Virus record (IMG/VR): IMGVR_UViG_3300007276_000233
Span: 1-27,582 of that record
Length of the DNA stretch: 27,582 nucleotides
Reading direction: 5' to 3' (one strand)
DNA from: a virus
The notes under the pieces are model-generated. The model made no database searches. It was not told where the DNA came from and saw nothing but the letters and a program-made list of their open reading frames with translations. This document shows, piece after piece, positions 6,705 through 17,179 of the stretch. Both the position numbers and the translations under genes were made by a program. Position 1 is the first letter of the stretch, and each line of letters opens with the position of its first letter.

Positions 6705-7090
6705 CAAGTAGTAATATCTGCGTTCACTCTAAAAGTTCCGTACAGGTATGTCTTTACTTTACTGGCAGAATCTACATCAGTGGCTGAATCTGTGTTTTGC
6801 AAGTCATAAACGTACAATCCTGGCGTTAACGCATTCATTTCACCTGCCGTTGCCTCTATTGTCAACTTAGCATTGACACCTGCTGAATTAGCCGATCTAA
6901 CATAAGAAAAAGCGGTGTCAGCAAGAATTGAGCTTGGGTTAGACCCAGCTGAATTATCAGAAGACTTTACGTCCATCTTCCATGTAGCGGACGGTATCTC
7001 TGCCCCAAAATCCACTCCCAAGGAGAAGCTGTCCCCTTTTCTGCAAATAATATCGAGTCTAGCTGCTGTATCTAGATTAACTGTCTGCAT
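6704..7090 (-). CDS. Small beta-sandwich tail protein, possibly BppU-like
   Basis: The product is 128 residues. It begins with a short head, then DIICRKGDSFSLGVDFG, ATWKMDVKSSD, AKLTIEATAGEMNALTPGLY and YDLQNTDSA, ending in KTYLYGTFRVNADITT. The order 'RKGDSFSLGV - strand - GLYVYDLQ - GTFRV' resembles, from general knowledge, small phage proteins with a BppU N-terminal-like immunoglobulin fold that anchor receptor-binding proteins to a baseplate. The match is by pattern only. It sits between portal and fibre genes, overlaps the portal end by 14 bp, and is the likely adaptor between tail and fibres. Confidence 0.7.
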   Translation of the reverse strand: MQTVNLDTAARLDIICRKGDSFSLGVDFGAEIPSATWKMDVKSSDNSAGSNPSSILADTAFSYVRSANSAGVNAKLTIEATAGEMNALTPGLYVYDLQNTDSATDVDSASKVKTYLYGTFRVNADITT

Positions 7091-9545
7091 TGTTCATAAT
7101 CTGATTTATAATGTCCTCAGGAGAGTCGTCTTTAGACTCATTCATAGCTTCTGGCAGCTCTCCTCTTTCACCTTGCCTTTGTGAGACCAACTTACTCTGC
7201 TCCACCGCCTGCTTCTTTACCCTCGTGTCTTTCCTGTCCTCTTTTAGAACCTCTAGCTTCTCCCTGAACTCTTGCTCCTCTGTCCTAAATCCAAGCGTGG
7301 CCTGAGCCTTAATCATTTCAATCTCTTTCCTGTGCTCATGCTTTAGAACCTCCATTTGAGCCTCAATTTGAGACTTCATTTGCTGCATTTGAGCGTCTAT
7401 CTGAGCCTTCGCTTGCATCTCTTGAAGCTTGGCTTGACTAGCCGCCTGAGCTGACTGCACTTGAGCTTGAGACTGCATTTGGACGTTCTGCTGAGCAATC
7501 TGCTGATTGGCAGCCATTCTTTTCTTACGACGGATAACTAGAAGGCGTTCAGCCTGATTTATATCCTTTAGCTGCCTAATAGCTATGGCATCCTCAATGT
7601 CTAGCTCCTTTTGGGACAGAGACACCTGAATATTTTGTTCTAAATATTGCTTTTCAATATCCTCCATCTCTTTGACTACCTGTACGCCAAAGTTGTACAT
7701 AGACAGCCTATTGAAGGTGCTTAGAATACCGATGTTCTCTGACCCTATTGCGTTTTCGTAAGCCCTGTATAAAATGCTTTCTCTAGGTATTACCTGCAAG
7801 CACTTTACTATGTCAGAGCATACTTTCTTAAACAACACCATAGAGGAGTTGGTTATATCGTAGATCGCGTTATTCCCTGCGGCAATAGCTTGCTGACGAA
7901 CCCCAACCAAAGCATCACCCTTAGGTGTAGTTCCGTCCATTGCCTCGTTAATGCCAGTGGCATCTCGAATCATTCTCAGGTAGTGGTTGTACAGGGATAT
8001 AAACTCGTTGATGTTTCGGACACTATTTCCAATCTCTCTTATTGGTGGGTTTTGGAACCCTCCCTCTGGATTCTTGCTCCTATAATAGAAAACACCAGTT
8101 TGCTCGTAAATATCGTGAAGCTCCAAAGGCTGCAAGTCGCCTCCTTTTCCTAGCTGCACGTTTTCTAAACCCTCGATGTCAATAATGATGCCGTCTGGCT
8201 TAGCCTTAGCGATAGCCTGCTGAATCTTAAGGTGAGTGAGCTGAAGTTGATCCGCAAAACCAACACAACTGTCTACCATAGACTTAGGGAGCATTTCGTC
8301 TAGGTTTGTAGCCACCACAGAGTAAGAAAGCTCGGCCTTAGAAAGGTCGTGCATATTCTTAGGTTGATTGGTCTTCAAACCATAGTTAAAGATCATGTCG
8401 CAACCAACAATATAGCTGCCTCCGTACACAGTCGCATTGTCAATGCACTTTACTTCTCTTTTGTATACTGAGTTAGTTGGCTCTTTATAGTTCTCTCCTT
8501 TGTAGTAGAAGCCTATATTTCCGTGCTTGCTCTCCTTTTCCTCGAAGTGCATCTTGTCTACAGACAAAAACTCAAAGTCCATGACTTCCACCATGTACTC
8601 GTCATACCCAAACTTATTCTTGTTTAAGTAGTCGTCATAGCTAGAGTGATTTAGCTTTGAAGAATCGTAGCTATACTTCTTTGCGGCTTTGTCAGCTATG
8701 TATTTATATTGCTCTTCCGTAAACTGATCTCCAGCAATTCTTTTCAATTCCTGGATAGGCATCTTCCTTACATGCCCAGCGTATACTATGTCTCCAAAAT
8801 TTGGGTCTTCAGTGTAGCTATGAACAAATCTAGCTGGATCTACATAGTGCGTCTTGATGCCTGTGTTCGGGTCGTTAGATCTTTTGCAAACAGCCATCCC
8901 CAAAACGGCTAAGTCGTTTACACACCTCCTGTATATAGCGTCACTAAAGTCGTTCCACTTTAAGGTCATGTTAGTAGCTATCTGAGCCGCTACCTCTGAC
9001 GTAGACTTTATGTTGTTCCCAAGAAATATCTCTGCCTCTTCTAGGGTCTCAGGTATACTTTCTGTATCAGCAATCTGAATCCCTGTCTTTTTTTGAGCCT
9101 CTATAAGCTTTTCTCTGTTTTTTATTGTCGCCTCAATCTTTCTCCTCTGCTTGTCTTTTTCACTAGACGACAATGGGTCCACAGCCTCTAAGTTAGGATA
9201 AGGCTCTGATGATAAGATTTTGTTTACGACAATCCGAACAAACTTAGGCAGTATAGGGACTGGAGTAAAGTCCATATTCAAGAAGCTACCATCTCCGTTA
9301 TTTGGGTCCAAGCTTGTTAGGAGCTGCCTGTATATTGTTGTGTCTTGGGTTCCGTTAGCGTACTTTCTATTTCTGTCGAAAGTAGTAACCCTTTTTTTCA
9401 TCAAGGAGTTACTTTCCTCTACAGAACCCCACTGACCATGAATAGCCTTTGCGTATCTAAGGCCATACTCCCTACCTTCTTTTTTTGACCTTTCAGCCAA
9501 AGGGTCTGGAAAGTTAATACTGTTTTTGCCCTTTTTGCCGTACAT
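7077..9545 (-). CDS. Portal protein
   Basis: The product is 822 residues, long for a portal. It follows the terminase directly. Residues about 1-110 carry a helical head with a PVPILPKFVRIVVNKILS segment, a common portal N-terminal feature (binding near the neck). The centre has FADQLQLTHLKIQQAIAKAK and LRMIRDATGINEAMDGTTPK, where the latter matches the conserved 'RDATGIN' block of large Bacteroidetes-phage portals. From about residue 640 to 770 there is a long Gln/Ala/Lys/Glu-rich coiled coil (QQIAQQNVQMQSQAQVQSAQ onward), then an acidic tail. The portal would form the dodecameric ring through which DNA enters and leaves the head. A promoter-like TATATTTG stands seven bases before the ATG, so portal and downstream fibre genes may have their own transcript. 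Confidence 0.88.
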   Translation of the reverse strand: MYGKKGKNSINFPDPLAERSKKEGREYGLRYAKAIHGQWGSVEESNSLMKKRVTTFDRNRKYANGTQDTTIYRQLLTSLDPNNGDGSFLNMDFTPVPILPKFVRIVVNKILSSEPYPNLEAVDPLSSSEKDKQRRKIEATIKNREKLIEAQKKTGIQIADTESIPETLEEAEIFLGNNIKSTSEVAAQIATNMTLKWNDFSDAIYRRCVNDLAVLGMAVCKRSNDPNTGIKTHYVDPARFVHSYTEDPNFGDIVYAGHVRKMPIQELKRIAGDQFTEEQYKYIADKAAKKYSYDSSKLNHSSYDDYLNKNKFGYDEYMVEVMDFEFLSVDKMHFEEKESKHGNIGFYYKGENYKEPTNSVYKREVKCIDNATVYGGSYIVGCDMIFNYGLKTNQPKNMHDLSKAELSYSVVATNLDEMLPKSMVDSCVGFADQLQLTHLKIQQAIAKAKPDGIIIDIEGLENVQLGKGGDLQPLELHDIYEQTGVFYYRSKNPEGGFQNPPIREIGNSVRNINEFISLYNHYLRMIRDATGINEAMDGTTPKGDALVGVRQQAIAAGNNAIYDITNSSMVLFKKVCSDIVKCLQVIPRESILYRAYENAIGSENIGILSTFNRLSMYNFGVQVVKEMEDIEKQYLEQNIQVSLSQKELDIEDAIAIRQLKDINQAERLLVIRRKKRMAANQQIAQQNVQMQSQAQVQSAQAASQAKLQEMQAKAQIDAQMQQMKSQIEAQMEVLKHEHRKEIEMIKAQATLGFRTEEQEFREKLEVLKEDRKDTRVKKQAVEQSKLVSQRQGERGELPEAMNESKDDSPEDIINQIMNNADS

Positions 9546-9566: not shown

Positions 9567-11672
9567 TTAGCGATGCCACTCTTTTATCTTGTTTGTGCGG
9601 AAAAAAGACTTTGAATCGAAGTCAGATCTCTTCTTTTGGTCTTTAACTTTTTGTGCTCCAAGAAGGGCAAGTCCAGAGCTGATAGTCAAGTCGTACTTAG
9701 TCCTGTTGCTTATTTTGTAGCCGATCCAATCCTCAAGAGTGTCATTAAAATACATGTTTCCAAAATCAGCGGTTTCTGGTTTTATGCCGACATGATCATG
9801 TATGTAGGTCTCTATTGAGTGGGCGTGTGACTGTATGACGTCCTGAGAATTAGATGGAATCCCCTTTGTTCTAACAGTTTTTGCGCTAGTTGACAAATGC
9901 TTTGGCCTATCCATAAGATAGTCGTCGTAACCCCTTGATTCAAAGTACCTTACTATGCCGTACTTGTTGTTCTCCACTAACAATGGGTATCCATAATAAA
10001 ACGCCGCCATCAACACGTCTTCGTAGAAAATGCTTGCTAAGTCAGGCCTGGAGGCGTACTCAAGCACAAACATGTTAGAAGGCACTTTGTCGTTCATGCA
10101 GAACTTATTGTACAGATGTAATGCCCCTTTAGACCCCCTACCGTCTACAGTCTCGTCTAGGTCATAAGAGTCTACTCCCCCAACACCATACTCCGCGTTA
10201 GAAGGGTACTTCTTTCCCTTGTTGTCAGAAAAGTTGTTCCTCATTTCTGCAGGTGGCTGCCAAGATATCCTGAACCTACCTCTTGCATCTGGGGAGAATA
10301 TTACCTCCTTGTCTTTCTCCTTCCACATGAAGTTTCCCCTGACAACAGGGTTAGGAAACATATTGTTGTTCCAGTCTATCTGCTGATAGATCTTACCTAT
10401 GTTGAATATACTCCCTTCAATACTGTCCCTGAACGCTTCATCTTCAGTTAAAGGGAACTGCCTGATTATCTCGTTAAGCTCAGACGGATCGTGCTTTAAT
10501 GAATCCCGTTCATTCTTAAGGTATTGGGCGCTTCCTTGGTCAACTTCTTCCCCGTCTACTCCTTTTAACGTAGCAGCAGGATCATCCACCACAGGGTTGC
10601 CATAGAGATCAAAAAACCCCTCAAGAGCATGAGAAGCAGGGATAAAAATACGATATAGCCCGCTTCTGGTTCTTCCGTTGGCATTCCTTTCTTCTGGATT
10701 GGAATCCTCCCATAGCTTTTTATATTCTTCACCCCCTTTGTTCATTGGGTTGACTGTACTGCCAACCATTGCCTTCCCTACTATTCTTTTACCTACAATA
10801 AGGCAAGTCCTCTCTATTCTCCAAGCCTCTTTTATGTCTACTGGTTTTTCCCACTTTCCCGCTTCGTCGAGGTAGAGGAAATGGAGCTTTTCCCCGTCGT
10901 AGGCGTTATTGGTTGTGTTTTTCCAGTTAACGATTGTATTGAGCGCGTCGCCCTTTTGTGACGTCTTATTCTTCTTGGTGATTCGTTTTGATGGTTCCCG
11001 AAAAGCGAGTTCCATACGTGGGTTCGTTGTTCCATCCTGTATAGGTTTAAAGAAGAACGGATAGCTCCTAAACATTGGAATTACCTTCTTCATGAATATG
11101 TTCTCCTGGGCGTCTTTACCAGTCTTAGACTGAATACCCAGAAGCTTGTCTTTTACTTGCGTAGCTTCGTCAACAAGTACAGCGGCACAGATATTAGTAT
11201 AGCCAGAACGCCTACACTTAGTATATAGCTGACCGATACAACGGGTATCGACCTCACACGCAGCCATGTGAATAAATATCTCACGCTGGAAGGCAAGATA
11301 CGAAGGATATCCGATATCAATCTTACTCCACTGGAGAAACATATAGTGCCTCCCTGTAATGTACGTAGGCACGCCATTGTTGTAAAACCAAACGCCGTTA
11401 CGCCTGCGCTCAAACTCCTTTTCGACATAAGAAGAAAACTTCGCTCGAAACTCGGAAGGTTTTTCGAACCACTCATCCATACTTCTAACCCTCGACAACT
11501 CCTGGGGCATAGGTATGCGTTGCCACACCTGCACTGCCTTTGGTTTGTCATGGAAGAGTATTTCAGATCGCTTTGGCTTTTTCGGAAGACCAACGTCAAG
11601 GCCGTGGAGTTCGAGTACCTCTCCTTCTTTGCCGTTAGGGTCCAGCCAAATAATGTCATCGGACCTGTCCAT
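9567..11672 (-). CDS. terL: Large terminase subunit (TerL)
   Basis: The product is 701 residues and should be the ATP-driven DNA-packaging motor with nuclease. The segment about 93-125 (GVWFYNNGVPTYITGRHYMF, then LQWSKIDIGYP) is a hallmark of the Bacteroidetes-phage terminase group that includes crAss-like and Cellulophaga phages. The P-loop position is the atypical YTKCRRSGYTN (150-160), not GxxxxGKT. Walker B is HFLYLDE (264-270), with D269 and E270. The coupling motif is VGSTVN (303-308). The RNase-H-like nuclease acids are probably D501 (GGVDSYD), E567 (LLVENN) and D661 (YDLTIS). The start overlaps the upstream zinc-ribbon gene by 17 bp. No small terminase subunit is certain nearby; the coiled-coil protein at 13648-13971 is one candidate. 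Confidence 0.93.
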   Translation of the reverse strand: MDRSDDIIWLDPNGKEGEVLELHGLDVGLPKKPKRSEILFHDKPKAVQVWQRIPMPQELSRVRSMDEWFEKPSEFRAKFSSYVEKEFERRRNGVWFYNNGVPTYITGRHYMFLQWSKIDIGYPSYLAFQREIFIHMAACEVDTRCIGQLYTKCRRSGYTNICAAVLVDEATQVKDKLLGIQSKTGKDAQENIFMKKVIPMFRSYPFFFKPIQDGTTNPRMELAFREPSKRITKKNKTSQKGDALNTIVNWKNTTNNAYDGEKLHFLYLDEAGKWEKPVDIKEAWRIERTCLIVGKRIVGKAMVGSTVNPMNKGGEEYKKLWEDSNPEERNANGRTRSGLYRIFIPASHALEGFFDLYGNPVVDDPAATLKGVDGEEVDQGSAQYLKNERDSLKHDPSELNEIIRQFPLTEDEAFRDSIEGSIFNIGKIYQQIDWNNNMFPNPVVRGNFMWKEKDKEVIFSPDARGRFRISWQPPAEMRNNFSDNKGKKYPSNAEYGVGGVDSYDLDETVDGRGSKGALHLYNKFCMNDKVPSNMFVLEYASRPDLASIFYEDVLMAAFYYGYPLLVENNKYGIVRYFESRGYDDYLMDRPKHLSTSAKTVRTKGIPSNSQDVIQSHAHSIETYIHDHVGIKPETADFGNMYFNDTLEDWIGYKISNRTKYDLTISSGLALLGAQKVKDQKKRSDFDSKSFFRTNKIKEWHR

Positions 11673-11835: not shown

Positions 11836-11849
11836 TGTTCATTTAATTG

Positions 11850-11923
11850 TACCCCCACCTGGACTCGAACCAGGGACCTACAGCTTAGAAGGCTGTTGCT
11901 CTATCCAGCTGAGCTATAGAGGC
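11850..11923 (-). tRNA. tRNA-Arg (anticodon TCT)
   Basis: The minus strand folds as a full cloverleaf: acceptor GCCTCTA pairing TGGGGGT (with G-U pairs), D-arm AGCTCAGCTGGATAGAGC, anticodon arm ACAGC / CTTCTAA / GCTGT with TCT, and T-arm CCTGGTTCGAGTCCAGG. CCA is not encoded. It reads AGA codons. It begins five bases after the stop of the T9SS cargo-like gene and ends 14 bases before the zinc-ribbon ATG. Confidence 0.95.
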
Positions 11924-11928
11924 ATAAG

Positions 11929-13245
11929 TTACTTAACTAAAGACACACTTCCTTTAAGTCGGATAGTCACCTCTCTTTCACCCCTAGCGTTTATAATCCA
12001 AGAGTATGTTCCATTAGGCGAGTAGTGATTACCCCCCATTACAGATCCATCCCATTTTGTTTGAGGGTCATTCGACCTGAATACCACATCTCCCCACCTA
12101 CTGAATACGACCATCTCCCACTCTATCCAGTAATCAGGATCTTGCGTCACAGCAAAAAAAGAATCATTTAAACCGTCGTTATTGGGTGAAAAAGCATTAG
12201 GTACGTATATAACCTGCTCTTCTTCTATTCCTGGAGGGTCTTCATCACAAAGATTTCCTGTCAGACAGTCGATCCATATCTCTTGGACTAAATACTCGTA
12301 AACAGTATCGGTTTGATATACATATGTAGTGTCAAAGACGTATGTGGTGTCGTTTACGTACACATATGTGGTGTCGTATATATACTCTGACTCATACACC
12401 TCCACCGTGTCTGTGAAAAAATATTCGATCGTATCGGGAGGTAGCTCTACATACTGAGTCAAGGTATCTACTTGGTAAACAGTATCCGTAGTATAATACC
12501 ATATGTCAATGTACAGAGTATCAGTCAGATACGTGGTGTCGTTAAAGTAATACTCTATGGTATCTGGAGGTAGCTCTACATAAACTGTATCTACCACATA
12601 GATCGGATCTTCCTGTTCGCAGGACACCCACCAATTTTCAAGTTCTTGGTCAGGATACGAGCCTGTAGACCCCCACTCAGTTCCGTCCCCATTAGCCCCT
12701 GTAGTGGCCCACCCCCCATCAGCGGCATACCATGTATTGGAGTAATTTATTTGCCAAACTACAATCTCAATGCACTCGCCTAAACCGATCCAGTAATCTA
12801 TAAACTGTGGAGCGCAACAACTCTGCCCTCCCGTAAGAAAAGGGTCGTTCTCACAATCCGTTTCATAGGGGTTGTCTAACTGCATCACCACCGTGTCCCC
12901 AGAGTACAGCGGCATATCTATATCAAAGTCACCACCCCAGTTGCTTGACATAGAATTCAAGCTAACCCCGTAAGTCCATCCCAAGTGATTTGCACTGGGT
13001 GACAGGTCACAAGGACCAGGGGGGTCCCAAGCCTCATCGATTCCTGGGACGTGCATCCCGATCATCAACATATTTATTGCCCCTGGAGTAGCCTGATAGC
13101 CCTGCATGCCACAACCTTCGCTATTTACTATCTCTAGAGTCACCTCGTAGGTGCTTAAGTTGACGTCAATGATGTCTACATCACATTGAGCAGAAGAAGC
13201 GGCGCTCAATATCAATAGCCAAATAGCAAATAGTCTTTCTTTCAT
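11929..13245 (-). CDS. Secreted protein with T9SS type-B sorting domain (gliding-motility-type C-terminus)
   Basis: The product is 438 residues from the ATG at 13245 (a TTG lies three codons upstream). Residues 1-19 are a signal peptide (MKERLFAIWLLILSAASSA, then Q20). Residues 20-210 are a Cys- and Trp-containing domain of unknown fold. Residues about 216-318 are repeats rich in Asp-Thr-Val-Tyr, with YVELPPDTIEY occurring twice, as in extended beta stalks. Residues about 345-438 match the CHU_C / T9SS type-B C-terminal signal: VIYVPNAFSPNNDGLNDSF, VVFSRWGDVVF, TKWDGSV, and a final GSVSLVK. In Bacteroidetes such domains send proteins across the outer membrane; SprB, the gliding adhesin, is a model. 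No SprF/PorP-like partner is in the window. A surface adhesin, superinfection-exclusion factor or virion display are possible roles, all inferred. Confidence 0.9.
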   Translation of the reverse strand: MKERLFAIWLLILSAASSAQCDVDIIDVNLSTYEVTLEIVNSEGCGMQGYQATPGAINMLMIGMHVPGIDEAWDPPGPCDLSPSANHLGWTYGVSLNSMSSNWGGDFDIDMPLYSGDTVVMQLDNPYETDCENDPFLTGGQSCCAPQFIDYWIGLGECIEIVVWQINYSNTWYAADGGWATTGANGDGTEWGSTGSYPDQELENWWVSCEQEDPIYVVDTVYVELPPDTIEYYFNDTTYLTDTLYIDIWYYTTDTVYQVDTLTQYVELPPDTIEYFFTDTVEVYESEYIYDTTYVYVNDTTYVFDTTYVYQTDTVYEYLVQEIWIDCLTGNLCDEDPPGIEEEQVIYVPNAFSPNNDGLNDSFFAVTQDPDYWIEWEMVVFSRWGDVVFRSNDPQTKWDGSVMGGNHYSPNGTYSWIINARGEREVTIRLKGSVSLVK

Positions 13246-13259
13246 TCTATTCAATTATG

Positions 13260-13336
13260 TCGGCGAGGTGGGGATTGAACCCACATGTGACCGATTACTC
13301 TTTCTACAAGATATAAGCTTGAGGAGATACTCACCG
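13260..13336 (-). ncRNA. tRNA-like sequence lacking a D-arm
   Basis: On the minus strand, CGGTGAG (5') and CTCGCCG (3') form seven acceptor pairs, and GTGGG-TTCAATC-CCCAC is a perfect T-arm. Between them the best arm is CAAG-CTTATAT-CTTG, whose seven-base loop has the anticodon-loop pattern with TAT (would read AUA, Ile). Only seven bases separate the acceptor from this arm, so no D-arm can form, and the variable region is about 21 bases. It lies 14 bases upstream of the ATG of the T9SS cargo-like gene. It could be a degenerate phage tRNA, a D-armless tRNA, or a processing signal. Confidence 0.5.
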
Positions 13337-13342
13337 AGTTGA

Positions 13343-13561: not shown

Positions 13562-13709
13562 ACTCTCCGTTCCACTCCTCGTTAAAATAAACGTGGTTAT
13601 TGTTATGCGAAGATACCCAATTAAACGATCCCGCGTATAGCGTATGGTTACTTGCTGAATTTCTCTGCGAATCCGCCTGTGTAGTCTTTTTGTTCCTCGA
13701 CTTCTCCAT
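13551..13709 (-). CDS. Unreported-size small gene (52 aa) filling a gap
   Basis: The frame runs from the ATG at 13709 to TAG at 13551-13553 and encodes MEKSRNKKTTQADSQRNSAS, then NHTLYAGSFNWVSSHNNNHV, then YFNEEWNGEYES. It fills the otherwise empty stretch between two neighbours and overlaps each of them (11 bp downstream, 62 bp upstream), as other genes here do. Composition (Trp, Tyr, Asn and acidic C-terminus) looks like real protein rather than chance. No family is recognised. Confidence 0.55.
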   Translation of the reverse strand: MEKSRNKKTTQADSQRNSASNHTLYAGSFNWVSSHNNNHVYFNEEWNGEYES

Positions 13710-13971
13710 TTTGTTTTAGGTCTTTAATCATTTGCTCTAAAGACTGCCTCTCTCTAAGTAATTCCTTACAGTCTATAGCTGTTTGCTTTACCGATTGTAA
13801 TTCAGCTTTTCTGGCGCTTCCATTTATCTCTTGATCTACTGGCTTCTTAACCTCTTCAATCATATTGTCTATAGCAATAGACATAGCATCCATCAATCTA
13901 GTAGCTGCACTTAGGGTGTCAAAGCTTGTAGAGGAGTCTTTCTGCTGGGATCCTGTAGTATTCCGTGCCAT
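13648..13971 (-). CDS. Coiled-coil small protein, possible small terminase-like
   Basis: The product is 107 residues, mostly alpha-helical: FDTLSAATRLMDAMSIAIDN, VKKPVDQEINGSARKAELQS, then a coiled coil CKELLRERQSLEQMIKDLKQ and an ending DYTGGFAEKFSK. Its ATG lies 53 bp inside the end of the GroES-like gene. Small helical proteins at this distance upstream of terL are sometimes small terminase subunits, but there is no HTH motif that proves it. I would call it unknown, with packaging as one guess. Confidence 0.72.
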   Translation of the reverse strand: MARNTTGSQQKDSSTSFDTLSAATRLMDAMSIAIDNMIEEVKKPVDQEINGSARKAELQSVKQTAIDCKELLRERQSLEQMIKDLKQNGEVEEQKDYTGGFAEKFSK

Positions 13972-14500
13972 CTATTGTGATTCTATAGTCAATGTTCTTT
14001 TGAAATCCTACAACATCCCCTTTATGTACGCCTAGTTCTTCTAAGTCAGGGGTGTCAAAAGAAACAACCCCTTTTTCTACGGGGTCTTCCTTGAAGGTTA
14101 CAACGTCTATTTCCGAAGAAACTTCTTCTTTATCTTCTTCGTAAGGCTCAAGCAAACACCACCCAAATAAAGGACGTACAACCCCATCTTTTTTGCTCTT
14201 ATACGCGATAGCTTGATTATTGATCGTACCGTCGGAATCGCACCTGACGAGATATTTATCATCTTCACCAGTAAGCGGTTGACCGTCATTAACAACCACG
14301 AGGTGGTGGAAGTAAAGAGTGTCCCCAGGTTCGACGTGTGTGTCGTACTTACATGGGGCCGCCACGACCTCTCCTTCTGTGACTCTGTGTTTGAACTCAT
14401 TGAACTTTGGGTCTACATAAATCTCCAGCCCAGAGCTGGTCTTTATTGTGTCTTTCACTCTATTCTCTAGGTGAACGACAAACAAATCAAGGGGTCTCAT
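13919..14500 (-). CDS. GroES-like (Cpn10) co-chaperonin, two-domain
   Basis: The product is 193 residues. The first domain (about 1-75) has the GroES order RPLDLFVVHLE, SSGLEIYVDPKF (in the mobile-loop region), VTEGEVVAAP and VEPGDTLYFHHLV. The second (about 105-193) repeats it more loosely: GVVRPLFGWCLLEPYEEDK, EKGVVSF and HKGDVVGFQK, ending EYYRIPAERLLYKL like the GroES terminus. Phage T4 gp31 and related co-chaperonins replace host GroES to let GroEL fold a large capsid protein, which is the most likely role here. The tandem duplication inside one chain is notable. The call is by pattern. It overlaps the following gene by 53 bp and is 4 bp from the previous one. Confidence 0.75.
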   Translation of the reverse strand: MRPLDLFVVHLENRVKDTIKTSSGLEIYVDPKFNEFKHRVTEGEVVAAPCKYDTHVEPGDTLYFHHLVVVNDGQPLTGEDDKYLVRCDSDGTINNQAIAYKSKKDGVVRPLFGWCLLEPYEEDKEEVSSEIDVVTFKEDPVEKGVVSFDTPDLEELGVHKGDVVGFQKNIDYRITIDGTEYYRIPAERLLYKL

Positions 14501-15056: not shown

Positions 15057-15482
15057 ATGCCAAAGTCTAGAGTCAGCAAGAAGAAACTGTTTAGGGAATT
15101 TTCTTTCTTAAAGGATAGGTATGTAGGTAAAAATTACTTGAAGCACATACATTCGTCAAGAAAAGAGTTTTGCGACCAGAACGGAGTAGCTTGGAGGCAC
15201 TTAGAATTCATGTTGTGGGCCTACGACATGGAGTTTTTTACTATAGACTACGCCGCTAAAGAGTACAACATGAACAGGAGCAATATGGCGAACAGGTTCG
15301 TGTATCCATTGGGGCAAGACGAGCTTATATACAAGCACTTTGACAGGCTTACCCCCTCAAAGACTCTAGAAGACCATTTGTTTAGAGATGAAACTAAGTA
15401 CAACTACAGGGTGAGGTATGCTCTGTCACAGAAAGCGCGTCTAATGGTTCAGAGGTTTTACAATAGCCTGGAAGCTTTATAG
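15057..15482 (+). CDS. Winged-helix-like protein, probable transcription regulator
   Basis: The product is 141 residues, and it is the only plus-strand gene among the left-half genes. Its central part (FTIDYAAKEYNMNRSNMANR, then FVYPLGQDELIYKHFDRL) is a helix-turn-helix-like segment. It is followed by a wing-like turn and the C-terminal helix pattern YALSQKARLMVQRFYNSL, seen in MarR-type winged-helix proteins. It would bind DNA and likely control the divergent minus-strand unit at 15037. No effector site is recognisable. Its end overlaps the convergent gene at 15477 by six bases. Confidence 0.7.
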   Translation: MPKSRVSKKKLFREFSFLKDRYVGKNYLKHIHSSRKEFCDQNGVAWRHLEFMLWAYDMEFFTIDYAAKEYNMNRSNMANRFVYPLGQDELIYKHFDRLTPSKTLEDHLFRDETKYNYRVRYALSQKARLMVQRFYNSLEAL

Positions 15483-16310
15483 TCCTAAGTTGTAATAAGT
15501 ATTGGCGTCTTGCTGTAATGAAGACCTACTACTGATCTTGGGCTCACTCCAAAATATAACCTCCTGCATATTTTTTTCTAGGTATTTACCAAAAGTTGTC
15601 GGTGGGCCTGAAAAAAGACTTTGCACTTCGAACGTCAAGGTCTTGTTTCCTGAAGCCTCTAAATTATCATCTACGAACAAAGAGAAGTCTCCGCTGCTGT
15701 CTACAGAGAAGAAATGATATACTTGGCTCCCTATGGGTTTAGACCATGCGTTGTACTCGTGAAGAAACGAATTAGTTTGTGAGGCCCCAAGGGTGTAGAA
15801 AGACCCGTTACGCTCGTATCCTAATGTTGATGGGCCAGAAAACCAACAGCGCCGTGACCCAGTGCTAGAAGGTATTTCCGCAATCATTGAAAAGGAAAAC
15901 TCAGAGAAAGAAATTGAGCTTGGCATAAAAAGAGTACTTTGAGCCGACCCTAATATCGCTGGGCGTCCATTTTCCTCTATTATAGAACCAGAATCACAAA
16001 TCTTAGGCTGATTGTCTGGATCTACCTGAGTAACATCTTTGTTGTTTCCACTAGCGTCGTACCACACCGTTATAAATCCATCATTACTTCCGCAGAAATT
16101 GATAATAGATGCGGTATCTAAGTCTCCATTATTATCAAACCCTATGTCTACCTCATTGTCACTTCCAGACTCTCTAATCCTAACACATCTTGCTGTTTTA
16201 CCAGATAGCCTTCTTACAGAATACGCAGCGGACGCATTTAAATGGCTATCTAGGATACCTACAAAGGCTTCATTTGAGTAGTCGTCTTTTGTTATTCCTA
16301 TTCCTAGCAT
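15477..16310 (-). CDS. Lectin/arabinofuranosidase-like tail protein, copy 2
   Basis: The product is 277 residues. Residues about 20-115 carry ASAAYSVRRLS, RIRESGSDNEVDIGFDNNGD and DGFITVWYDASGN, a block found at the N-terminus of phage adhesins related to alpha-arabinofuranosidase B (ArabFuran_catal-like) and LamG-type domains. The rest is a beta jelly roll with QVYHFFSVDSSGDFSLFVDD and a conserved helix MQEVIFWSEP near the end. It should bind glycan, perhaps on tail or capsid fibres. The N-terminal 115 residues are nearly the same as those of the adjacent gene at 16325-17179, while the C-terminal part differs strongly. Confidence 0.78.
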   Translation of the reverse strand: MLGIGITKDDYSNEAFVGILDSHLNASAAYSVRRLSGKTARCVRIRESGSDNEVDIGFDNNGDLDTASIINFCGSNDGFITVWYDASGNNKDVTQVDPDNQPKICDSGSIIEENGRPAILGSAQSTLFMPSSISFSEFSFSMIAEIPSSTGSRRCWFSGPSTLGYERNGSFYTLGASQTNSFLHEYNAWSKPIGSQVYHFFSVDSSGDFSLFVDDNLEASGNKTLTFEVQSLFSGPPTTFGKYLEKNMQEVIFWSEPKISSRSSLQQDANTYYNLGL

Positions 16311-16324
16311 AATTCAGTGAAGCT

Positions 16325-17179
16325 TTATAACCCGTAATAGGTGTTTAAGTTTGACTCGATGTTCCCTTGATCAGTGCTGTTTTTAGCCTCACTGAAAATA
16401 ATAACCTCCTGAATAGTACCGTCTATCGGCCTATCGACATAGGTTTCTCTTCGGTTGCCTAAAGCCATATCGTCGCCTGCTGCGCCTATTGATGAATTTC
16501 CAGACACAGCGGATCCATCTATATACTGTTCAACTATCTCCGTACTTACGTCGCTTATACTAGTTGACAGAACTTGTGTACCAAAAGTATAACCCCCTGT
16601 GTCTTGGTCGAACGTTTGGCCGCCTAGAGTTCGCAAAACAGAACCTAGGTGTCCTCCACTATATGATGTCCCTACAGCAAAAGCCGCCCATTCACCAGTT
16701 ATGAAATCTGGGCTTAACTGAACAGCTATTCCATTTCCGTTAGATATCTTAACTACAGTAAACACACTTAGGTCACCTTTGTCCCAAACTGACGTTGGCA
16801 TAGCTAAAGTGTTTTCGAAAAACTTTATCGCTGGCTTCCCTCCTTCGTTGATTATGGAGCCGTCATAAATTTTAGGCTGAAGGTCAGGATCCGTTTGACT
16901 TGCGTTACGACTATTCCCACTAGCGTCGTACCACACCGTCACAAATCCATCATTGCTCCCACAGAAGTTAGAGATTACTGCAGCGTCTATGTCGCCATTA
17001 TTATCAAACCCTATATCTACCTCATTGTCACTTCCAGACTCTCTGACTCTAATGCATTTTATTGATGAGTCAGACAACCTTCTTACAGAGTACGCAGCAG
17101 AAGCGTTTAAATGGCTATCTAGGACGCCTACAAAAGACTCGTTTGAGTAATCATCTTTTGTTATTCCTATTCCTAGCAT
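16325..17179 (-). CDS. Lectin/arabinofuranosidase-like tail protein, copy 1
   Basis: The product is 284 residues, a paralogue of the gene at 15477-16310. It shares MLGIGITKDDYSN, SHLNASAAYSVRRLS, RESGSDNEVDIGFDNNGD and VWYDASGN, but the receptor-like C-terminal half is diverged (GGQTFDQDTGGYTFGTQVLS, and TIQEVIIFSEAKNS near the end). Tandem copies with a constant head and variable distal part suggest two adhesins or alternative ligand specificities on the same attachment base. The two copies are 14 bp apart. The upstream neighbour ends 3 bp before the start. Confidence 0.78.
   Translation of the reverse strand: MLGIGITKDDYSNESFVGVLDSHLNASAAYSVRRLSDSSIKCIRVRESGSDNEVDIGFDNNGDIDAAVISNFCGSNDGFVTVWYDASGNSRNASQTDPDLQPKIYDGSIINEGGKPAIKFFENTLAMPTSVWDKGDLSVFTVVKISNGNGIAVQLSPDFITGEWAAFAVGTSYSGGHLGSVLRTLGGQTFDQDTGGYTFGTQVLSTSISDVSTEIVEQYIDGSAVSGNSSIGAAGDDMALGNRRETYVDRPIDGTIQEVIIFSEAKNSTDQGNIESNLNTYYGL
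16826..17179 (-). repeat. Tandem duplicated 5' coding block (second copy at about 15957-16310)
   Basis: The first about 350 bp of the two lectin-like genes are alike at DNA level. The 28-bp stretch over each start region, ending in ...TAGCATAATTCAGT on the plus strand, is identical in both. Similarity falls off after the IGFDNNGD/VWYDASGN block. This is a gene duplication followed by divergence of the 3' half. Confidence 0.8.

Follow-up and report, generated by a model that had tools for sequence, protein, structure and literature searches.

A predicted T9SS type-B cargo protein encoded by a phage and belonging to an almost exclusively viral family

The window analysed here, a 27,582-base virus record from IMG/VR that lacks end repeats, carries a phage gene, placed between packaging genes, whose product is strongly indicated by its C-terminal domain and signal peptide to be a T9SS type-B cargo. 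Export of this protein by the T9SS of the host is judged probable. We marginally favour a reading in which it is a surface protein of the infected cell and not of the virion, displayed through the host T9SS and masking a receptor. A wider proposal, regarded as finely balanced and slightly more doubtful than probable, is that such proteins form a dedicated, virus-restricted T9SS type-B class across several phage lineages of Bacteroidota, in which the N-domain is repeatedly re-fused to different type-B domains matching the PorP/SprF shuttle of each host, as a form of host-surface reprogramming. The gene and the parts of its product are as follows:

11929..13245, minus strand: gene for the predicted T9SS type-B cargo protein, 438 aa, ATG start, with a TTG in frame at 13254
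13189..13245, minus strand: predicted signal peptide, residues 1-19 (MKERLFAIWLLILSAASSA), mature start QCD, judged from sequence and conserved in 61-62 of 62 homologues
12610..13185, minus strand: N-domain, residues 21-212, Cys-containing, a new family
12214..12609, minus strand: Asp/Thr/Val/Tyr-rich stalk, residues 213-344, with Lys and Arg almost absent
11932..12213, minus strand: C-terminal CHU_C / T9SS type-B sorting domain, residues 345-438

The initial annotation had given the coordinates 11929-13245, which agree exactly with a minus-strand ORF beginning at ATG, and its account of the protein's anatomy is borne out. By inspection, MKERLFAIWLLILSAASSA is predicted to be a Sec-type signal peptide cleaved before QCD. 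Its core is strongly hydrophobic in 61 of the 62 distinct full-length homologues, and a Q stands immediately N-terminal to the first Cys in all 62; no lipobox is evident in the sequence, the mature start Q-C-D following A-S-S-A. The N-domain spans 192 residues, and the stalk, described earlier as repetitive, indeed contains abundant T, V, Y and D and hardly any Lys or Arg. All three motifs cited for the sorting domain (VPNAFSPNNDGLNDSF, RWGDVVF and WDGSV) were found in the protein. The proposed CHU_C/T9SS-B match was also confirmed by profile search, with 55.6 bits (E 6e-15) for PF13585 and 37.1 bits (E 2.5e-9) for TIGR04131 against curated cut-offs of 27 and 35 bits, respectively. The match covers residues 350-428 of 441, at the extreme C-terminus; the same search was positive in none of 14 control genomes. 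The conserved blocks PNAFSPNNDG.ND, RWG..VF, WDGS and G.Y.W and a C-terminal strand can be recognised in the protein.

The surroundings of the gene are those of a phage genome, in which the following features are located:

7077..9545, minus strand: portal protein (phrog_6547)
9567..11672, minus strand: terminase large subunit, terL (phrog_6681), the downstream border of a variable slot
11849..11923, minus strand: tRNA-Arg (TCT), a conserved tRNA of the slot, bounding the cargo gene downstream
13258..13337, minus strand: tRNA-like element, bounding the cargo gene upstream
13648..13971, minus strand: conserved 107-aa protein, the upstream border of the slot
13919..14500, minus strand: GroES-like co-chaperonin (phrog_13932), with conserved synteny

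An M15 endolysin and tail-fibre-like proteins are also among the neighbours in the window. Since the same neighbours repeat in contigs from many metagenomes, a wrong join of host and phage DNA during assembly is excluded. By terL, the cultured relatives comprise Elemovirus and other phages that infect Flavobacterium, Cellulophaga, Tenacibaculum and Maribacter, all below 60% identity, and the window phage is a distant relative of the cultured Elemovirus podoviruses; the nearest annotated relative, at 48%, is the 60.9-kb genome of a podovirus from Manatee Spring. Among related phages, 11 long records yielded no tyrosine integrase, a result consistent with virulent phages. Two tandem paralogous proteins are encoded on the minus strand at 15477-16310 and 16325-17179 of the window, the first of which weakly matches the virion structural family phrog_10356.

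Terminase-related loci share a conserved order of GroES, 107-aa protein, slot, terL and portal, and the cargo gene of the window clade sits in this hypervariable slot. In Elemovirus, GroES and terL overlap or abut, which means that such a slot does not exist there. At no fewer than 24 loci the slot measures only about 200-500 bp and holds at most one or two short ORFs. Elsewhere in sister phages its contents include glycosyltransferases of families 1, 2 and 4, an NAD-epimerase, a DegT aminotransferase, UDP-galactopyranose mutase, a hexapeptide transferase, a sulfotransferase, and a GDSL hydrolase or MazG. In four loci (L006, L007, L017 and L022), the cargo gene and three glycosyltransferase-like genes occupy the slot together. 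Glycan cassettes consisting of glycosyltransferases, epimerase, UDP-galactopyranose mutase, DegT aminotransferase and acyl or sulfo transferases were also observed in the slots of L065, L066, L071, L073 and others.

In L014 and L016 the cargo gene is flanked by tRNA-Ile and tRNA-Arg, in L029 and L031 these two tRNAs directly adjoin, and in L027 and L033 the interval is occupied by a lipoprotein-like gene instead. This 129-aa lipoprotein-like gene replaces the cargo gene beside tRNA-Ile/tRNA-Arg in five sister phages:

L027, 4625-5014: 129-aa lipoprotein-like gene
L030, 6574-6963: 129-aa lipoprotein-like gene
L033, 6089-6478: 129-aa lipoprotein-like gene
L038, 5716-6105: 129-aa lipoprotein-like gene
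L046, 3229-3615: 129-aa lipoprotein-like gene

The tRNA-like element at 13258-13337 comprises an 8-bp acceptor-like stem and a T-arm without a normal anticodon arm. It is nearly identical in seven related contigs, the only places matched by an exact-pattern search, and its interpretation as a simple decayed copy of the relatives' tRNA-Ile was rejected.

Homologues in other phage genomes, which had been suggested as a check, were recovered from 20 IMG/VR loci by protein search. The N-domain alone matches 121 IMG/VR stretches and the type-B domain alone 209, the latter count being subject to possible host DNA in IMG/VR. Among the distinct N-domain proteins, 67 full-length members carry both N-domain and C-domain, and where the C-domain is missing, the protein is truncated by a contig end or comes from the disrupted locus L231. 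Of 26 records searched, 22 were positive for a type-B domain gene, with exactly one in each. A 169-kb virus contig (L020:10001-12747) was seen to carry two T9SS type-B cargo genes in tandem. The window protein and four divergent members have no match in PHROGs, and in annotated phage records only the C-domain was matched, in two huge-phage records and one fragment. C-domain matches on plasmids proved to be ordinary host proteins.

Cellular genomes yield almost nothing for the N-domain: none in one scan of genome contigs, and 0 of 21, 1 of 399 and 0 of 395 in three samples of Bacteroidota genomes, that is, one match in about 810, with a few genomes occurring in more than one sample. Located at a contig end, the sole cellular match (L321:1438-2880, in G074:C47) consists of a signal peptide and a truncated N-domain joined to a lipase-like ORF, and could be a misassembly or chimera. 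A bacterial origin of the N-domain is disfavoured by this count, and the searches indicate a family found almost only in viruses. Within viruses, the family recurs in several phage lineages and genome positions. A second phage group (terL 46-49%) has the cargo gene between its capsid-like and neck-like structural genes, and other phages have it immediately after a giant virion protein (L134) or beside a secreted M43 peptidase. The last arrangement was observed in 100-110 kb phage contigs, where a secreted fasciclin-domain protein, the secreted M43 metallopeptidase and the cargo gene lie close together (L144:6473-11422).

The hypervariable and frequently empty slot would suit a neutral passenger taken up from the host, and the slot pattern alone could also be produced by hitchhiking in a flexible slot; purifying selection could not. 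Where dS is measurable between the window and its close relatives, dN/dS is 0.01-0.12 in the N-domain, the stalk and the C-domain, indicating that all regions of the cargo protein are under purifying selection. This result in all domains, together with the near absence of the family from Bacteroidota genomes and its recurrence across phage lineages and positions, makes the passenger explanation very improbable, unless a larger sample were to show relaxed selection. The two terminal domains have separate histories. Relative to the window, L008 retains 87% identity in the N-domain and 45% in the C-domain, while L012 shows 36% and 85%, respectively, a pattern indicating that the two domains recombine independently. 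In a set of 37 phages, identity in the C-domain rises with that in terL (r 0.55, permutation p 0.0005, a relationship that could be due in part to shared ancestry), whereas the N-domain shows no such correlation (r 0.05, p 0.25); in the window clade of 31 phages the contrast is smaller (0.52 for the C-domain versus 0.29 for the N-domain, both p 0.0005). By these measures the C-domain tracks phage lineage and the N-domain does not. Such a difference would be expected of a C-domain constrained to fit a host-specific secretion partner and an N-domain traded among phages.

Type-B cargo requires a PorP/SprF-like shuttle, and its final location is decided by the type-B domain (PMC12618676). As had been stated at the outset, no PorP/SprF gene is present in the window, nor was one found in 29 of 30 virus records; the single positive record, the 270-kb G832, may be host DNA in IMG/VR. 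With no PorP/SprF encoded by the phage, a host shuttle would have to be borrowed. An adjacent PorP/SprF gene is common for type-B cargo but not universal, and its lack does not disqualify the window protein, because orphan cargos without one exist: in F. johnsoniae, Fjoh_1123, Fjoh_1720 and Fjoh_4934 use one common shuttle (PMC12618676). The window cargo resembles SprB and these orphans in combining a Sec signal peptide with a C-terminal type-B domain, and the three orphans also in having no PorP/SprF gene beside it. It differs from the F. johnsoniae cargos in being phage-encoded and in its N-domain, nearly absent from Bacteroidota genomes, and from SprB in its far smaller size of 438 aa.

A four-step route can be proposed from these features. 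In the first step, which is strongly indicated, the signal peptide would direct the cargo through Sec to the periplasm. In the second, strongly indicated by the type-B domain, the host T9SS translocon would take it across the outer membrane. In the third, a borrowed host shuttle would presumably act as it does for the F. johnsoniae orphan type-B cargos, after which the cargo would be anchored at the surface; the second and third steps assume a host with a functioning T9SS and a matching shuttle. In the fourth and weakest step, the stalk would keep the N-domain off the membrane and the N-domain might cover or alter a receptor. The outcome would be that superinfection, or the loss of progeny on fragments of lysed cells, is blocked, a purpose analogous to that of T5 Llp.

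The initial interpretation is supported in part. Placement of a surface protein through the host T9SS is a prediction well supported by the anatomy and by comparative genomics, and attachment to virions is less likely, as a signal peptide occurs in every intact member and no fusion to a virion protein was seen. If the protein were a virion or lysate factor, coating progeny or acting as a released receptor decoy, its C-domain would be a generic beta domain. The gene positions between capsid and neck-like structural genes in the second phage group, and directly after the giant virion protein of L134, speak for such a factor. It is nevertheless considered improbable, since the signal peptide would take the protein out of the cytoplasm, the site of virion assembly, the N-domain is standalone, unlike a virion Ig-like decoration domain, and the C-domain passes the T9SS-specific TIGR04131 cut-off.

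The N-domain was modelled with AF2 from 41 sequences (pLDDT 79.6, pTM 0.80); a full-length model from 13 sequences was poor (pLDDT 43) and was discarded. Foldseek comparison of the N-domain model with the PDB gave no confident match, the lamin-tail-like Ig matches being weak (E 0.1, TM about 0.3) and not taken as homology, and a sequence search against the PDB returned nothing significant. The absence of a confident match to a solved structure means that no receptor or ligand is implied. The fold is matched by two viral proteins, one of which is A0A7S9STS8 (Virus NIOZ-UU157). The latter shares its C-terminal annotation with the window protein; its name, "Gliding motility-associated C-terminal domain-containing protein", is an automatic UniProt annotation only, and no study of it was found. 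A role as a secreted effector acting extracellularly, whether enzymatic, nutrient-related or toxin-like, would have a precedent in Cryophage, where an endoglucanase and a glycoside hydrolase are among the type-A cargos (PMC7468147). This role is held to be a shade less probable again than a virion factor, given that no enzyme family was detected in the N-domain by Pfam and PHROG profiles or by structure and sequence searches of the PDB.

As to the purpose of surface display, the initial annotation had named an adhesin or an exclusion factor. Exclusion or receptor masking remains the leading functional guess and fits the slot context, and it is advanced tentatively, our doubts somewhat outweighing our confidence. 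The glycan-modifying and lipoprotein-like genes of the same slot point to surface alteration, and for a phage without an integrase the simplest benefit would be to stop superinfection and the loss of progeny on infected cells or their fragments. T5 Llp, a lipoprotein, blocks the receptor and thereby avoids phage loss on infected cells and fragments (PMC9586334). The proposed purpose is shared, that of a small phage envelope protein blocking a receptor, but Llp is an early lipoprotein of the periplasmic side, whereas the window cargo is predicted to lie outside via T9SS, and the two are not homologous. The placement of the cargo gene among structural genes in the second phage group suggests late expression, which would count against an exclusion role, exclusion proteins of the Llp type being early.

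A T9SS-displayed adhesin of the infected cell might instead bind cells, particles or polysaccharide and so stay near new hosts, or might alter gliding or adhesion, in keeping with the adhesin nature of most known type-B cargos. In F. johnsoniae the known cargos of this type are either established adhesins or predicted to be such (PMC12618676), a stalk with an exposed domain is an adhesin-like architecture, and the L144 phage group also encodes the secreted M43 peptidase and fasciclin-domain protein nearby. Such a role is considered unlikely, if appreciably less so than a virion factor, in view of the small size of the protein, the lack of a clear gain for a virulent phage, and slot companions that are glycan-modifying genes and not adhesins.

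It had also been stated that no characterised phage example was known; published cases do exist. Three type-A T9SS cargo proteins are encoded in flexible islands of Cryophage, and the authors of that work suggested that these hijack the T9SS of the host and play a part in competition or superinfection (PMC7468147). In crAss-like gut phages, T9SS sorting-domain proteins have been noted near head genes (PMC6949934). Phage-encoded T9SS cargo is therefore not new as a principle. The window cargo shares with that of Cryophage its phage origin and its location in a variable genome region, and differs in that the Cryophage type-A domains are carried by an endoglucanase, a glycoside hydrolase and a PA14 protein and the type-B domain here by a new N-domain. 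With the crAss-like proteins, whose sorting type is not stated in the passage concerned, it shares a sorting domain and a position near head genes, theirs standing in a BACON carbohydrate-binding domain context. In a limited search of the open literature, no earlier account was found of type-B cargo proteins forming a dedicated family that is restricted to viruses and exchanges its sorting domains independently.

If the proposed display is correct, phages would use a bacterial secretion system as a route to the outside of the infected cell, and the presence of one such gene in many Bacteroidota phages from marine and freshwater sources would be accounted for. It would be predicted that the sorting domain evolves with the PorP/SprF shuttle of the host and the N-domain with the receptor or with rival phages. 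The analysis also describes the anatomy of a family of virus proteins that is missing from PHROGs.

A further arrangement was observed in relatives, in which two overlapping genes form a cassette at four loci:

L332, 40-3482, minus strand: overlapping two-gene cassette
L333, 461-3636, plus strand: overlapping two-gene cassette
L334, 835-3998, plus strand: overlapping two-gene cassette
L335, 844-4499, plus strand: overlapping two-gene cassette

In G812, G815, G827 and G830, a secreted protein of 700-900 aa contains Cys-rich repeats and a T9SS type-A-like sorting domain, which exceeds the curated cut-off in G812 and G830 in a genome search and falls slightly below it for G812 in a protein scan. 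The gene of this type-A-like cargo is overlapped by that of a 345-aa signal-peptide protein resembling an outer-membrane barrel. The barrel-like protein was considered as a PorP/SprF and gave no match, nor did it match anything in Pfam, the PDB or PHROGs; homologues of it occur in 6 of 26 records. If the cassette is real, the phages G812, G815, G827 and G830 carry both cargo classes.
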